Shown: positions 3,105 to 24,393 of the stretch, one piece after another
Layout: each line of letters begins with the position of its first letter
Position numbering within the stretch: position 1 is the stretch's first letter
Assembly (NCBI GenBank): GCA_031266095.1
Contig: JAISBR010000156.1
Location: 1-24,393 of the forward strand
DNA: 24,393 nt
Reading direction: 5' to 3'
Source of the DNA: Treponema sp.
Lineage (GTDB): Bacteria; Spirochaetota; Spirochaetia; Treponematales; Breznakiellaceae
Notes under the pieces: generated by a model
Told to the model about the DNA's origin: nothing
Seen by the model: the letters and a program-made list of their open reading frames with translations, nothing else
Databases searched by the model: none
Position numbers and translations under genes: made by a program

Positions 3105-3293
3105 GTACAAAAAGCCGTCCGGTATGGGTGGCCTGCGATGGTTACAAAGGGGGACCCGGCGACGGGCCAAACGGTTCCGCGCTTCTGTCAGGACGCGGGG
3201 GCGTTTTTCCCCTTGTATATACAAAAAGGGAACGCGGTACGGATTTGCGGTGGCAAAAGACGCCGGTGTTCCGGCAAAGTTAAGGAGAAGAAC

Positions 3294-4124
3294 ATGAAGA
3301 AAACTTTTGTGAGATTGGGAGTTCTGGCCGCGGCGCTGGTATTCGCATTCGTTTTTGCGTCCTGCGCGCAGCCCACCGATGAATCATCTTCGGGCCCTAA
3401 CGCCCCGACCATCATCCGGCTGCACCTGGACAAACAGGAAACCACGGCTTTTGTAGGTACAACGTTTGAGATAAGGGTCGGCGAGGAACTGTATGTTCCG
3501 CAGGGCGTCATAAATTACCCCTACGCCAATGTACCGGGACAGAATGACGGCAAAACCTCTGGTCAGCAAATTAATACCGTAGATATAAATGATCGGACGA
3601 GAGTGCTGGCAATACCCGGTACCGTGACCAGGACTGATGATCCTAACGAGAGTGTTCTCCAACGAGAGGGTAAAAAGAATATCCTGGCGAGCGGAGTTTT
3701 GAATGCTTCGACTGGTGTCGGTGCAGTTGGTAGTGGGACGACAGGTGCAGGTTTAATCCAAACCGATAACAAAGATAAGACCCAGCGGTACATTGACATT
3801 GAGCTGGTTGACGTAAAGCAGTCAAGCGCAGGCTTCGGTTCGGTCTTCAGCGGCAGCATCAGCGGGTATGTGGAATTGGCAGTAACCGGTACTGTGGCAG
3901 GGAATGGCCTGGCGGCCAATCGTGCCTATTTGTACACCAAGGATAAACACGGTTTCAATGACTTCCTGAGACTCGCTACCGCTGCCGATGCTACGGCACT
4001 TGGTGTGAATGCTGGTACCCCGATTTATGGGGTGAAAAACGCCAACATCAAGAAGGTCAGCCTGAAATCCGGTATTAACGACCTGTATCTTTCCTTTTTC
4101 TCATTTAACCAGGACAGCGAATAA
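3294..4124 (+). CDS. Lipoprotein of unknown function, paralogue 1
   Basis: This is a 276-residue exported lipoprotein. The N-terminus has MKK, a hydrophobic core and the lipobox FASC, with the lipidated Cys followed by AQPTDESSSG, so the mature protein is probably membrane-anchored and possibly surface-exposed. No catalytic or known domain is recognised. Visible conserved blocks shared with the next gene include TIIRLHLDKQET, NVPGQNDGKT, DINDRTRVLAIP, GLIQTDNKDK, QRYIDIELVDVKQ, YLYTKDKHGFNDFLRLAT and a C-terminal GINDLYLSFFSFN. The reading frame is open from 3138, but the start is ATG 3294 because aaggag (3282-3287) precedes it by 6 nt and the signal peptide begins there. It is the first gene of a tandem pair downstream of a promoter with a poly-A spacer. 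Confidence 0.85.
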   Translation: MKKTFVRLGVLAAALVFAFVFASCAQPTDESSSGPNAPTIIRLHLDKQETTAFVGTTFEIRVGEELYVPQGVINYPYANVPGQNDGKTSGQQINTVDINDRTRVLAIPGTVTRTDDPNESVLQREGKKNILASGVLNASTGVGAVGSGTTGAGLIQTDNKDKTQRYIDIELVDVKQSSAGFGSVFSGSISGYVELAVTGTVAGNGLAANRAYLYTKDKHGFNDFLRLATAADATALGVNAGTPIYGVKNANIKKVSLKSGINDLYLSFFSFNQDSE

Positions 4125-4236
4125 TCCGGTCCTCGCAAATACATCCGGTACGGATGGTTGGGCGGGGTAAGTTCGATACAAAAAGGGAACGCGGCAATAA
4201 AAGACGCCGGCGTTCCGGCAATTGAAGGAGAATAGT

Positions 4237-5076
4237 ATGAAGAAAACTTTTGTGAGATTGGGAGTTCTGGCCGCGGCGCTGGTGCTCATTTTTGCGGCTT
4301 GCGCGCAGCCCACCGATGAATCCTCTTCGGGCCCCAACGCCCCGACCATCATCCGGCTGCATCTGGACAAACAGGAAACCGTGAATTTTGAAGGTGCAGT
4401 GTTTGAGATAAGGGTTGGCGAGGATTTGTATGTTCCGGTGACCGCCTTTGCCAACTATCCCTACGGCAATGTACCGGGACAGAATGACGGCAAAACCACT
4501 GCCCAGCAAATTAACGACGTCGATATAAATGACCGGACGAGAGTGCTGGCGATTCCCCCCAGGGCGACTAATGCGGATCTTGCTCTTGATCATAGTGTGC
4601 TCCAGACAGCGGGTAAAAAGAATTTCCTGGCGAGCGGAGTTTTGCAGGCCATGGCTGGCGTCAGCGTAGCTGGTGGTGGTGTAATAGCAGGTGCAGGCTT
4701 AATCCAGACCGATAACAAGGATAAAATTCAGCGGTACATTGACATTGAGTTGGTTGACGTAAAGCAACCAAGTACGGGCTACGGTTCGGTCTATAGCGGC
4801 AGCATCAGCGGATATGTGGAACTGGCGGTAACCACTGGCACCCTGGCGACCCATGGCGTGGAAGCCGATCACGTCTATCTGTACACCAAAGATAAACATG
4901 GTTTCAATGATTTCCTGAGACTCGCTACCACCGCCGATCAGGCGGCAGGCGCGGCTGCTAATATTGGGGACCCGATTTACGGGACGAGAAACGCCAACAT
5001 CAAGAAGGTCAGCCTGAAACCCGGTATTAACGACCTGTATCTTTCCTTTTTCTCATTTAACCGGAACAATCAATAG
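4237..5076 (+). CDS. Lipoprotein of unknown function, paralogue 2
   Basis: This 279-residue lipoprotein is a close paralogue of the preceding gene. The signal peptide is nearly identical and ends in the lipobox FAAC, followed by the same AQPTDESSSGPNAPTIIRL block. Differences concentrate in three places: the segment after YVP, the loop between AIP and GKKN, and the Gly/Val-rich part before GLIQTDNKDK. The C-terminus ends GINDLYLSFFSFN like its partner. gaaggag at 4224-4230, 6 nt before the ATG, supports the start at 4237 rather than 4222. No terminator separates the two genes (112-nt gap), so they are probably co-transcribed. The function is unknown; divergence in loops would fit a surface antigen, but that is inference. 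Confidence 0.85.
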   Translation: MKKTFVRLGVLAAALVLIFAACAQPTDESSSGPNAPTIIRLHLDKQETVNFEGAVFEIRVGEDLYVPVTAFANYPYGNVPGQNDGKTTAQQINDVDINDRTRVLAIPPRATNADLALDHSVLQTAGKKNFLASGVLQAMAGVSVAGGGVIAGAGLIQTDNKDKIQRYIDIELVDVKQPSTGYGSVYSGSISGYVELAVTTGTLATHGVEADHVYLYTKDKHGFNDFLRLATTADQAAGAAANIGDPIYGTRNANIKKVSLKPGINDLYLSFFSFNRNNQ

Positions 5077-20063: not shown

Positions 20064-21320
20064 ATGAAAAACGTCAAAGCCGCGGTCTGCGTCAAATGCG
20101 GAGAGGAATACGAGGCGGGAAACGCTACCTATACCTGTGGGAAATGCGGCGGTGTTCTGGAGATCGTCTACGATTACCGGTACATCAAGTCTCAGTTAAA
20201 CCGGGAGAAACTCGCGGCCCGAAAAGATTTCTCGATATGGCGTTATATGGAACTGCTTCCCGTTGAGGAAGGCAGCAGGCTCGGCCCTCTGCGGGTGGGC
20301 TGGTCGCCCTTATACAAAACCGAACGCTTAGGTGAAACCCTGGGACTGAAAAACCTCTATATTAAGGACGACGGCCTTAACCCCACCGCAAGCCTCAAAG
20401 ACCGGGCCTCGGCAGTCGCGGTAGTGCGGGCCTTTCACGCCGCCAAGGACACGGTAGCCTGCTCTTCCACGGGAAACGCCGCCTCGTCACTGGCGGGCGG
20501 GGCCGCGGCGATGGGCCTTAAATCCGTTATCTTTGTACCCGAGCGGGCGCCCCTGGGCAAGGTAACCCAGCTGCTGCTATTCGGCGCCGCGGTTATCAGC
20601 GTCAAGGGAAATTATGAGGAGACCTTCCGCCTTTCCGCCGAGGCCATTGCGCAATACGGCTGGTATAACCGGAACGCGGCCATCAACCCGTACCTCTCGG
20701 AGGGAAAGAAAACCGTGTCCCTGGAGATCGCCGAACAACTGAACTTTGAGGTCCCCGACTTTGTGGCCGTTTCCGTGGGCGACGGCTGTACTATCGCCGG
20801 CGTCTGGAAGGGCTTCAAGGATCTCTACGCCGTGGGCCTTACCGACCGGCTGCCCCGGCTCATCAGCGTACAGGCCTCCGGCTGTTGCCCGGTGAACCGC
20901 GCTGTTGAGCAAAACGCCCCCATTGAGTGGATGGATGAGAACACCCTGGCGGACAGTATCGCGGTGGGCGCTCCCCGTAACGGGGACAAGGCCCTGGCGG
21001 CGATTCGGGAATCCAAGGGTATTACCATTAACGTCAGTGATGAGGACATACTCGCCGCTATGCGGCTCCTGGGGAAAAGCGCCGGGGTTTTTGGCGAGCC
21101 TGCCGGAGTGACCGGAACAGCCGGGCTGGTACAGGCGGTTGAGCGGAAACTTATCCCAACGGACGCGGTGGTGGTCTCGATCGTAACCGGCAGCGGCCTC
21201 AAAGATGTAGCCTCGGCCCAAAAGGCCGCCGGTTTTGAAACCGGCGGCGCAAACCTGCTGCGTATCGCCCCCGACATGCGGCTGTTAACCGAAGCCTTCG
21301 CGAAACGGGGTATCCGGTGA
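20064..21320 (+). CDS. thrC: Threonine-synthase-like PLP enzyme
   Basis: This 418-residue fold-type-II PLP enzyme is probably threonine synthase, which converts O-phosphohomoserine to threonine. A four-cysteine zinc ribbon (Cys9, 12, 25, 28) opens the protein, as in several archaeal-type threonine synthases. The PLP lysine is Lys112 in NPTASLKDRAS, and the substrate loop is SSTGNAAS. APLGKVTQLLLFGA and GNYEETFRL resemble Thermus threonine synthase. SLKDRAS in place of the usual SFKDRG leaves some doubt about substrate; cysteate synthase and other paralogues share this fold. gagg before the ATG and a 9-nt gap link it to the upstream PLP gene. No homoserine kinase or dehydrogenase gene is near. 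Confidence 0.75.
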   Translation: MKNVKAAVCVKCGEEYEAGNATYTCGKCGGVLEIVYDYRYIKSQLNREKLAARKDFSIWRYMELLPVEEGSRLGPLRVGWSPLYKTERLGETLGLKNLYIKDDGLNPTASLKDRASAVAVVRAFHAAKDTVACSSTGNAASSLAGGAAAMGLKSVIFVPERAPLGKVTQLLLFGAAVISVKGNYEETFRLSAEAIAQYGWYNRNAAINPYLSEGKKTVSLEIAEQLNFEVPDFVAVSVGDGCTIAGVWKGFKDLYAVGLTDRLPRLISVQASGCCPVNRAVEQNAPIEWMDENTLADSIAVGAPRNGDKALAAIRESKGITINVSDEDILAAMRLLGKSAGVFGEPAGVTGTAGLVQAVERKLIPTDAVVVSIVTGSGLKDVASAQKAAGFETGGANLLRIAPDMRLLTEAFAKRGIR

Positions 21321-22587: not shown

Positions 22588-23583
22588 TTATGGTTGTTTG
22601 TTAAGGGTAAAGTCCATTCCTACACATCTATCGCTGTATATAATGATCGTTGCGTGTTCGGAGCCGCCAAGCATACCTTTGATCTCTTCACTCAGCGCAG
22701 CCCATGATTCCCAGCTATCTGCACCACCACCAAGGAAGCCGGTATTAACCTGAGTAAAACTCACAAGGGCAGGGTTTGTATTTGTCGTAGTTGGATATGT
22801 TCCCTTTGCTATGTCATGCCAGGAACTACCACCATCAAAGCTCATAGATTGAGTCCAAGTACCACCGGCGGCGGCAACTAGTCTCACCGGATTGCCATCA
22901 TCATCTTCACCTGCCCATGTTCCCTCTAAGGTTAAAGCAGTATTCAGTTTGGTGAGCGTTCCGCTCATGGGGCCGAAATTCGCGACGTGTATCTTTGCGT
23001 CGTCTCCAATATACGCAAGCCCCGTAGTGCCTGCTCCTTCACCCCCGGTAATGGTTAACTCCGCGCCTATTCCTCCAACACGGGAATACGTTCCCTCAGC
23101 AACAGTCTCCCCGTTACCGGCGGCTTCCCATGCGGTAGCCGTAAATGTAACGTATACTCCTCCGGCGCTGTCCACAGCCCATACCGTATTGGTAAAGGTA
23201 TTTGTACCGTTGTCGGTCCCGGCGTCAAGCGCCGTGACGGTGAAAGTCTTGGTGTAAGCGCTTGACCGTGAACTCCCGTTTGCGATAGTAGCGGTCAGCG
23301 TAGGAGATCCCGCGGATGCCGCGGTTAAGACGCCGTTACTTACACCGGTACCGCTCCACACAATGGTCTTGTTGGTAGCGTTAGCAGGTACAACTGTACC
23401 GCTGAGTGAAAGCGCGTTGCCCACAAAGGTCAGAGTCGGCAGGCCGTCAATATTCGTAACGGCGACAAAGGTATCGACATAATCGCCGCTGTCTTCGCCG
23501 CCGGTGGGGCACGCCGCCAGAACCAAACCCAATGCCAGCAGAACCACCGGCAATCCGAAAACAAAAAACCGCTTCGTTTTCAT
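22588..23583 (-). CDS. Lipoprotein with bacterial Ig-like domain
   Basis: This 331-residue lipoprotein has a signal sequence ending in the lipobox LAAC, followed by PTGGEDSGDYVDTF. A bacterial Ig-like (Big_2-type) domain spans about residues 40-115: VTNIDGLPTLTFVG, LSLSGTVVPANATNKTIVWS, VSNGVLTAASAG, LTATIANG. The remainder is Gly/Thr/Trp-rich beta-type sequence with WAVDSAGGVYVTFTATAW and YSRVGGIGAELTITGG, resembling lipocalin-like repeats found with this domain in treponemes. It is probably surface-associated, with adhesive or structural roles guessed from the domain only. The frame is open from 23616, but ATG 23583 is chosen because aaggag precedes it by 6 nt and the signal peptide starts there. 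Confidence 0.82.
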   Translation of the reverse strand: MKTKRFFVFGLPVVLLALGLVLAACPTGGEDSGDYVDTFVAVTNIDGLPTLTFVGNALSLSGTVVPANATNKTIVWSGTGVSNGVLTAASAGSPTLTATIANGSSRSSAYTKTFTVTALDAGTDNGTNTFTNTVWAVDSAGGVYVTFTATAWEAAGNGETVAEGTYSRVGGIGAELTITGGEGAGTTGLAYIGDDAKIHVANFGPMSGTLTKLNTALTLEGTWAGEDDDGNPVRLVAAAGGTWTQSMSFDGGSSWHDIAKGTYPTTTNTNPALVSFTQVNTGFLGGGADSWESWAALSEEIKGMLGGSEHATIIIYSDRCVGMDFTLNKQP

Positions 23584-23601
23584 ACAAAACTCCTTGTGTT
23601 G

Positions 23602-23680
23602 TATGCCCTCAGGCATAATTTTTTATGTTCACCGCATAAGCGGGTAACACCTTTGTTACGGCGCTCAAGGGATGAGCGCC
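23602..23680. repeat. Cluster of short hairpins upstream of the lipoprotein
   Basis: Two perfect inverted repeats lie here: tatgcc / ggcata (23602-23617, 4-nt loop) and ggcgctca / tgagcgcc (23660-23680, 5-nt loop). On the minus strand they fall within the probable promoter/leader of the Ig-like lipoprotein gene. No confident -35/-10 pair was identified. Confidence 0.4.
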
Positions 23681-23685
23681 CTTGC

Positions 23686-23708
23686 GCCCCTCAGCAGGGG
23701 GCGTACCC
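23686..23708 (+). repeat. Left flanking hairpin copy of the tandem array
   Basis: A 23-nt GC-rich segment (gcccctc ... ggggcgtaccc) forms a stem of cgcccc with ggggcg. It matches the segment at 24031-24053 in 20 of 23 positions and overlaps the first array unit by 4 nt. Confidence 0.7.
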
Positions 23709-24026
23709 TGCGCCAGGCTATCGCAGGACCCTGCGCCAGGCTATCGCAGCACCCCGCGCCAGGCTGTCGCAGCACCCTGCGTCAGGCTATCGCAGCACCC
23801 TGCGTCAGATTATCGCAGGACCCTGCGCCAGGCTATCGCAGCACCCTGCGTCAGGCTGTCGCAGGACCCCGCGCCAGGCTATCGCAGCACCCTGCGTCAG
23901 GCTATCGCAGCACCCTGCGTCAGGCTATCGCAGTACCCTGCGCCAGGCTATCGCAGGACCCCGCGCCAGGCTATCGCAGGACCCCGCGCCAGGCTATCGC
24001 AGCACCCTGCGCCAGGCTGTCGCGGC
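23705..24026 (+). repeat. Fourteen tandem copies of a 23-bp hairpin-forming unit
   Basis: Fourteen units of exactly 23 nt run without any gap, starting at 23705, 23728, 23751, 23774, 23797, 23820, 23843, 23866, 23889, 23912, 23935, 23958, 23981 and 24004. Each follows accctgcg / ccaggct / atcgcag plus one variable last base (G, C or T). Differences are mostly transitions at a few positions (T/C at 5, C/T at 9, A/G at 16). cctgcg near the start can pair with cgcagg at the end of the unit, and cgcag can pair with ctgcg across the unit boundary. There are no unique spacers, so it is not CRISPR. The period is not a multiple of 3, yet all three plus-strand frames are open. Confidence 0.95.
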
Positions 24027-24030
24027 ATCT

Positions 24031-24053
24031 GCCCCTCGGCGAGGGGCGTACCC
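24031..24053 (+). repeat. Right flanking hairpin copy of the tandem array
   Basis: gcccctc ggc gaggggc (24031-24047) is a perfect 7-bp stem, followed by gtaccc. It is a near-copy of 23686-23708, so the array is bracketed by direct repeats of one hairpin motif. Confidence 0.7.
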
Positions 24054-24091
24054 ACCCCTCAGCGCGCGCGGCATCCTCCCCTGCGCCTGAG

Positions 24092-24111
24092 CGGTCAATG
24101 TGCTTTGACCG
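24092..24111. repeat. Perfect 7-bp hairpin
   Basis: cggtcaa (24092-24098) pairs with ttgaccg (24105-24111) around a 6-nt loop. There is no T-tract on either side. Confidence 0.45.
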
Positions 24112-24159
24112 TACAATGAAGCGCCCGAAAGAGCCTCCATAAAAGTGAAAACAGGCATA

Positions 24160-24268
24160 CGTATCCTCGAACCTTCGGTTTGAGGATACGGCGCAGCTGA
24201 GGATAAAATGATACGGAAAGGAGCACTCCGCGCGACAGCGGCCGGAAGCGGAGTATATAAGCGTATCA
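24160..24268. other. Structured non-coding segment, possible RNA
   Basis: Three nested or adjacent stems lie here. A 14-bp stem (24160-24173 with 24177-24190, one G-T pair, ttc loop) includes gtatcctc / gaggatac. An outer stem tgatacg (24209-24215) / cgtatca (24262-24268) encloses an inner stem actccgc (24225-24231) / gcggagt (24248-24254). No coding frame or known RNA family was recognised. The density of perfect stems suggests a transcribed structured element, but the quality of nearby sequence is doubtful. Confidence 0.35.
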
Positions 24269-24295
24269 GGTAAAAGGATTATACAAACGTTACAT

Positions 24296-24393
24296 GGGGG
24301 GGGGGGGGGGGGGGGGTACCAAAACCCCCCCCCCCGGCATGGACCCCGGGGTTTTCCGCGGGGGGTTGGCGGGGGGGGGTTCCCGTTTGTGTC
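24296..24393. other. Homopolymer-rich, probably low-quality contig end
   Basis: Twenty-one consecutive G (24296-24316), then eleven C (24325-24335) and several further G-runs fill the last 100 nt. This pattern is typical of sequencing or assembly failure at a contig end. A real poly-G tract cannot be excluded. Confidence 0.7.

Follow-up and report, generated by a model that had tools for sequence, protein, structure and literature searches.

A 23-bp hairpin array in a Treponema contig is related to a lineage-restricted class of DNA-hairpin arrays

The tandem array in a 24,393-nt Treponema sp. contig (the whole analysed stretch, hereafter the window) is related to a lineage-restricted class of DNA-hairpin arrays and does not stand alone. 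The best-defined relatives are built of a 7-nt linker, TAAGCCT, and a 16-nt palindrome with a 6-bp stem and a 4-nt loop. Their stems differ between arrays and between neighbouring units yet stay complementary, and adjacent units may carry entirely unrelated perfect palindromes.

In the window, TRF reported an array at 23705-24027 with a period of 23, 14.0 copies, 90% matches, 0% indels and a score of 499, which bears out the 14 contiguous units of fixed 23-bp length described in the first-pass annotation (Table 1). Its two further descriptions, that units vary chiefly by transitions and that hairpins form both within units and across their boundaries, also hold. Columns 5, 9, 13, 14, 16 and 21 of the unit table show transitions only, and column 23 holds C, G or T. 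The unit folds as CTGCG-CCAGGCTAT-CGCAG, with 9 nt between the stem arms, and 65 of the 70 cells of this five-pair stem are Watson-Crick pairs, the others being four A-C and one G-T on the + strand. A second hairpin, CGCAG-nACC-CTGCG, spans the unit boundaries. Double compensatory changes are absent from the window array itself, with its five non-Watson-Crick cells in 70. G+C content is 69.6% in the array and 54.4% in the window. A 19-nt core pattern, allowing up to three mismatches, matched 14 times in the window, always inside the array, and never in 100 shuffles. All three + frames are open across the array because its units contain no stops on the + strand, as might be expected of a protein-coding tandem repeat. 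Such a repeat has next to no probability here, however, as 23 is not a multiple of 3 and the three ORFs have no Pfam match.

Table 1. Features of the window at and around the array.
Feature	Position	Strand	Description	Basis
14 x 23-bp array	23705..24026		- strand reading: TAGCCTG-like linker + GCGCAG-GGTN-CTGCGA-like palindrome	TRF, unit table
Flanking unit, different hairpin	23682..23704		hairpin 23685-23703, centre 23694, 23 bp before first array hairpin centre (23717)	
Flanking unit, different hairpin	24027..24049		GCCCCTCGGCGAGGGGC; hairpin 24031-24047, centre 24039, 23 bp past last array hairpin centre (24016)	
Two degenerate units	24050..24095		still at lag 23; 14/23 and 15/23 identity to preceding unit	
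Flanking palindrome	23660..23680		8-bp stem, 5-nt loop	palindrome scan
Palindrome	24092..24111		7-bp stem, 6-nt loop	palindrome scan
Single linker-palindrome unit	23637..23659	+	TAAGCGG + perfect 6-4-6 palindrome GTAACA-CCTT-TGTTAC	
6-4-6 palindrome	23602..23617		TATGCC-CTCA-GGCATA, between lipoprotein-like gene start and array; then T run on + strand	
Neighbouring gene, putatively lipoprotein-like	22588..23583	-	start codon taken as 23583; array upstream; no Pfam family	

The hairpin regularity reaches past both of the array ends given earlier, and the intergenic region is a longer train. The units adjoining the array carry different hairpins whose centres keep the 23-bp step; at lag 23 they match the neighbouring array unit at 7 of 23 positions on the left and 9 of 23 on the right. 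Further to the right, units 15-16 and 16-17 are identical at 14/23 and 15/23 positions (mononucleotide-shuffle P(>=14) = 0.0002). On the left, the palindrome centred on 23670 lies 24 bp, not 23, from the next hairpin centre. The single unit beyond it holds the sole TAAGC site, out of 43 in the window (22 on the + strand and 21 on the - strand), that precedes a 16-mer with at least 5/6 pairs; TAAGCGG linkers are present too at a locus of genome G002 (L085). The flanks (23600-23703 and 24028-24280) together contain eight perfect palindromes of at least 6 bp, versus 0.45 in mononucleotide shuffles, with none of 300 shuffles reaching that number. A long hairpin, CGTATCCTCGAACC-TTCG-GGTTTGAGGATACG, was seen by eye downstream of the array at 24160-24191.

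The gene neighbouring the array reads as lipoprotein-like from a Cys near its predicted N-terminus. A homologue with 49% identity is found in G001, and any match in 4 of the 11 genomes searched. The region upstream of the G001 homologue differs from that of the window and includes, by eye, a diverged 21-bp periodic stretch. Elsewhere in the window (3138-5076), two paralogous lipoprotein-like genes without a Pfam family lie side by side, most of their repeat blocks being 76-92% identical at a spacing of about 940-950 bp. The window also encodes a threonine-synthase-like protein (20064-21320) whose best relatives, at 86, 86 and 84%, are those of loci L001-L003, from Treponema MAGs and a Spirochaetia record.

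The palindromes of the window array are of the same family as those of TCGCAG..CTGCGA arrays in genomes G005 and G015, and its TAGCCTG-like linker recurs in one G005 array (L092). Of 20 loci, 18 lie in whole genomes; used as a query, the array DNA matched 4 of these 18, among them a 46-copy array of G005, and found a match in 2 of the 11 genomes of G005's genus. Most units of the matched arrays, but not all, consist of a TAAGCCT-like linker and a palindrome. The array region (23600-24300) had no match among plasmids and phages by distant blastn.

We determined the distribution of the class with a strict 23-bp pattern, which matched 20 of the 390 genomes of the order. All 20 were among the 169 from G005's family, none among the 221 others, and the reversed control matched none of the 390. 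The strict pattern was preferred because a variable-gap pattern with three linkers has background: it matched 26 of 195 family genomes (367 matches, mostly at 23-bp spacing among those listed), whereas its reversed control still matched 19 of the 195 (62 matches). The first-pass annotation had named a sole locus, absent in relatives, as part of what would count against its reading; for the loci, the related arrays show otherwise. The linker pattern did not match two single-contig family genomes (3,855,671 and 4,059,867 bp), and a 96-kb sample of the two contained no array of at least three copies with a period of 12-70.

At loci 83-150, which were chosen by linker or array similarity and include overlapping ones that entered the count repeatedly, 309 of the 358 successive linker pairs less than 67 bp apart were spaced 23 bp. 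The 23-bp arrays were mostly intergenic (49 of 57, by simple ORF calls at loci partly chosen for arrays). Two matches on viral contigs (L081 and L082) were rejected as single matches that, by eye, fall in apparent phage coding sequence. Loci L239 and L240 were likewise set aside, having TAAGCCT at 23-bp spacing but other anatomy by eye; L239 is included as one array in the counts of loop inversion, consensus pairing (41/68) and array-end phase, and left out of those on neighbour pairing, G-T and A-C pairs, linker variability, covariation and census linkers.

Many relatives lie at the contig ends of short-read MAGs, and the window ends in low-complexity G/C runs, as would be seen if the arrays were artefacts of assembly or of contig ends. 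We consider this highly improbable: the units are diverged, arrays also occur at internal, flanked positions and in many assemblies, and contig breaks are the expected outcome of repeats. The runs themselves, long stretches of G and of C at 24297-24393, resemble low-quality or artefactual sequence. The arrays probably break short-read assemblies of gut treponemes, and they may mark rearrangement points.

We analysed covariation in the commonest unit from each of 69 distinct linker-anchored arrays (62 distinct units), a set in which the linker is invariant by choice of pattern and some rows share a locus or genus. The 6-bp stem was paired in 79.6% of cells versus 47.7% in shuffles. The covariation score was 0.721 against 0.182 +/- 0.025 in shuffles, none of 500 being as high, and slid partners scored at most 0.242. 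Three or more Watson-Crick types were seen at five of the six stem pairs. Of the five measures, two did not rise above shuffles: the pairs with both sides changed, a value reached in 393 of 500 shuffles, and the number of pair types, reached in 383. Array consensus units had at least 5/6 pairs in 41 of 68 arrays, compared with 11% for halves taken from different arrays. In 82 neighbour pairs with differing arms, pairing of at least 5/6 was found within 85 of 164 inserts and across 11 of 82 linkers (p = 3e-9). The co-varying module is therefore the 16-nt insert, whose arms stay paired with each other, unlike arms on either side of a linker. In 38 TRF arrays, selected because they hold two exact linkers in phase, variability was 0.052 in the linker, 0.104 in the stem and 0.205 in the loop; the linker varied less than the stem in 30 of these and more in 6 (p = 2e-5). 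The covariation across units and genomes that had been proposed as a check is present in the linker-bearing relatives. As for the earlier choice between selection on phasing and recent amplification, a constraint on length and fold is better supported than a single recent amplification, because the 23-bp unit is common to many arrays that differ in sequence, and the linker-bearing subset shares a covarying palindrome.

An unbiased census was obtained by running TRF on 1.57 Mb of contigs not selected for arrays and counting intergenic arrays of at least three copies. The sample comprised 20 low-numbered contigs each (up to 20 kb per contig) of G063, G015, G001, G026 and G029, two contig numbers each being passed over in G063 and G029, and 30 thrC loci. 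The 70 intergenic arrays had periods of 21 (n=29), 22 (n=6), 23 (n=20) and 24 bp (n=4), with 11 at all other periods; 59 of 70 thus fall at 21-24 bp. The mostly Clostridia-labelled thrC loci L031-L080 (0.79 Mb) contained three intergenic arrays, none with a period of 21-24. Array content varied by genome: G015 and G063 were rich, and the G001 sample had no intergenic array. G001 holds one of the two closest thrC relatives, and its locus L001 has a linker-bearing 23-bp array.

TAAGCC or TAGCCT occurred in the TRF consensus of 4 of the 20 intergenic 23-bp census arrays, none with an exact TAAGCCT, and of 1 of the 39 arrays with a period of 21, 22 or 24. A palindrome was detected at p<=0.05 in 6 of the 20. 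Palindromic arrays with the linker make up part of a 23-bp length class, most members of which have neither the linker nor a clear palindrome. Exact TAAGCCT sites had a neighbour at 23 bp in 6/40 cases in G063, 0/23 in G015, 0/30 in G026, 0/16 in G001, 1/16 in G029 and 3/33 at the thrC loci, against 4/73 in the Clostridia control. Solitary linker-palindrome units with at least 5/6 pairs were at background level, with two in 1.57 Mb of Treponema and two in 0.79 Mb of Clostridia. The 21-bp arrays are as common as those of 23 bp and diverse in sequence; some are palindromic, and some sit within ORFs or might encode heptapeptides. They are abundant in G015 and G063 contigs (L179-L218) and at L006, L017 and L303, 22-bp arrays being rarer. 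L196 and L197 of G063 carry 69-bp tandem repeats, possibly coding 23-residue repeats.

The first-pass annotation had listed a structured RNA among its readings. The array transcript would then be a chain of hairpins that regulates or stabilises a message or titrates a protein. Covarying stems agree with this, as do both strands of the window array folding better than most shuffles (z of -3.2 and -2.2; 1/100 and 3/100 shuffles equal) and a weak bias in orientation to genes, with 36 same-strand and 22 opposite-strand gene sides. Stems selected in a transcript would be expected to tolerate G-U over A-C on the transcribed strand. Among distinct inserts, however, the non-Watson-Crick pairs were 65 G-T and 75 A-C (p=0.45); of the arrays, 17 had more G-T and 24 more A-C, with 8 ties. 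About half of the A-C cases fall at the outermost stem pair, and the inner five pairs of distinct inserts had 59 G-T versus 37 A-C (p=0.03). This inner-pair excess hints at strand asymmetry but does not persist when arrays are the unit of counting (21 versus 15, p=0.41; counted once per array and pair, 39 G-T and 37 A-C, p=0.91), and no robust asymmetry is present. An Rfam covariance-model scan of the window gave one match, outside the array, with an E-value of 0.71 and a score of 15.2 bits, the gathering score being 50. A weak scan for sigma-70-like sites found none reading into the array within 23560-24393. An RNA function is thus not favoured and appears very unlikely. Given that no robust strand bias exists among the non-Watson-Crick pairs, it is probably as DNA that the palindromes are maintained. 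Strong covariation, the usual evidence of RNA structure, occurs here without a robust G-U strand signature, and the arrays lend themselves to testing whether template switching gives rise to compensatory changes.

A DNA-binding protein that sits on each 23-bp unit and serves nucleoid structure, segregation or control of the lipoprotein-like gene would agree with the fixed spacing, the common linker and the mostly intergenic location of the arrays, as well as with the palindromes between the window array and its neighbouring gene. The stems vary freely between and within arrays, however, unlike a sequence-specific site. Array polarity has no clear relation to GC skew (26/53 positive; 2/11 where skew is at least 0.05), and array position is not conserved between the relatives examined. 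We therefore regard protein binding as unlikely.

Our leading explanation, held tentatively and at somewhat less than even odds, is that the arrays are intergenic DNA hairpin minisatellites of a lineage-restricted class, which slippage expands and template switching symmetrises. Each unit would consist of a short linker (TAAGCCT or a relative; TAGCCTG in the window) and a 16-bp quasi-palindrome with a 6-bp stem and a 4-nt loop. When the DNA is single-stranded, in replication or repair, each palindrome could fold back and bring the direct-repeat linkers together at its base. Slippage between linkers would then gain or lose whole 23-bp units, and template switching within a palindrome would rewrite one arm from the other and sometimes invert the loop. 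Through such arm rewriting the stems could drift yet remain complementary without an RNA function. What is observed is the array with its relatives, the covariation, the length lock, the loop inversions and the lack of robust strand asymmetry, whereas the replication mechanism is our inference.

Loops in reverse complement on the same perfect stem were found in 12 of 47 cases, versus 6 of 106 for reversed or complemented loops (p=0.0009), and 4 of 332 non-self-complementary inserts had their reverse complement in the same array. Loop inversion looks real but rare, the latter because of those 4 of 332, and it fits template switching, whose signatures are arm homogenisation and spacer inversion in the parts consulted of PMC8604942 and PMC8794818. 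Arrays end at arbitrary phase. The left flank of one G063 array matched the congeneric genomes G061, G062 and G064 at 87-89% identity; at the orthologous position G061 has a different 23-bp array, G062 and G064 have none in the stretch read, and all right flanks differ. As a single locus was compared, this is an indication of array volatility. The recombination hot spot suggested earlier, or one of slippage, is plausible in light of the loop inversions and of this one position with a different array or none. Loss of the hairpin nuclease SbcD in carriers was considered and is not supported, SbcD scoring above the cut-off in 14/26 carriers versus 64/169 other genomes.

Against slippage with template switching, neutral slippage should neither conserve TAAGCCT between genomes nor fix the period (59/70 at 21-24). 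Drift also poorly accounts for neighbouring units with wholly different perfect palindromes. Considering that the linker was found in 4/20 and a palindrome in 6/20 of the 23-bp census arrays, the hairpin mechanism leaves part of the length class unaccounted for. We infer a further factor behind the shared linker, the 23-bp length and the 23-bp arrays without linker or clear palindrome.

A dedicated enzyme (an HUH/Y1 transposase, recombinase or integrase) might build the arrays by reading the linker and a hairpin irrespective of its sequence, in the way proposed for RAYTs and REPs. The linker and geometry are constant across 20 genomes while stems vary freely, and adjoining units may have unrelated perfect palindromes. 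Y1_Tnp (PF01797) occurs in 119 of 195 family genomes, with any match in 21/26 carriers versus 98/169 others and at least four matches in 16/26 versus 27/169 (p=2.6e-6). Of 20 Y1 loci, all from relatives' genomes, five (L160, L161, L167, L169 and L173) are closely followed, by eye, by a 21- to 23-bp repeat array. However, an exact TAAGCCT lies within 500-600 nt of the domain at 1 of these 20 loci, and another repeat, GTGYCAGACA, lies beside 12. The array-rich G015 and G026 have one and two Y1 matches and G002 has none, dispersed solitary units do not exceed background, and the copy-number association may reflect shared ancestry. An enzyme of this kind seems rather unlikely, and RAYT was rejected as the cognate one since Y1 flanks mostly bear GTGYCAGACA instead. 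The many-copy Y1/RAYT-like genes at L159-L178, with that repeat beside 12 of 20, are possibly an undescribed REP-like family of these treponemes. More speculative, and doubtful, is an undescribed system of this Treponema family that writes a constant 7-nt linker and an arbitrary 16-nt palindrome on a fixed 23-bp (perhaps also 21-bp) ruler, with an enzyme reading the fold and not the stem sequence. If enzyme-built, the arrays would represent a new kind of structure-reading repeat machinery.

We compared the arrays with known systems. No paper listed in searches of an open-access library describes such arrays in its title or abstract opening. Arm homogenisation and spacer inversion, expected of quasipalindromes corrected by template switching, are seen in the linker-bearing relatives but not in the window array. 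The cases covered by the parts consulted of PMC8604942 and PMC8794818 are single inverted repeats located in yeast genes or in RNA genes, whereas ours are long tandem arrays with a conserved linker. According to the sections consulted of PMC3116915 and PMC3733652, REP/REPIN elements and their RAYTs resemble the arrays in being short extragenic palindromes in many copies, with a conserved tag beside a variable stem-loop, and tandem REPIN clusters are on record. Array carriers are, moreover, often rich in Y1/RAYT-like genes. REP tags are GTAG or CGTC at one palindrome end (PMC3733652, in part), whereas the linker is TAAGCCT in the relatives or TAGCCTG in the window. REPs form singlets and inverted doublets, whereas these arrays run head-to-tail at a fixed 23-bp period with solitary units at background, and it is GTGYCAGACA (12/20), not TAAGCCT (1/20), that accompanies the relatives' Y1 loci. 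CRISPR arrays, with repeats of about 24-48 bp and non-repetitive spacers between them in the part consulted of PMC3733652, similarly alternate a constant element with a variable one of fixed length. Here, however, the constant part is 7 nt, the inserts are palindromic and repeated within arrays, and Rfam gave no match on the array. Nor does a known structured RNA family account for the arrays, the sole Rfam match being below its gathering score and outside the array.

Bacterial minisatellites or VNTRs consist of head-to-tail units with homogenised variants. The arrays likewise are tandem units of tens of bp with variants, as TRF and the unit table show. Unlike minisatellites, arrays of different sequence share a unit length, and a subset shares a linker and a palindrome with covarying arms. 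Because the likely mechanism uses known polymerase errors, we rank them as palindromic minisatellites, a known kind.
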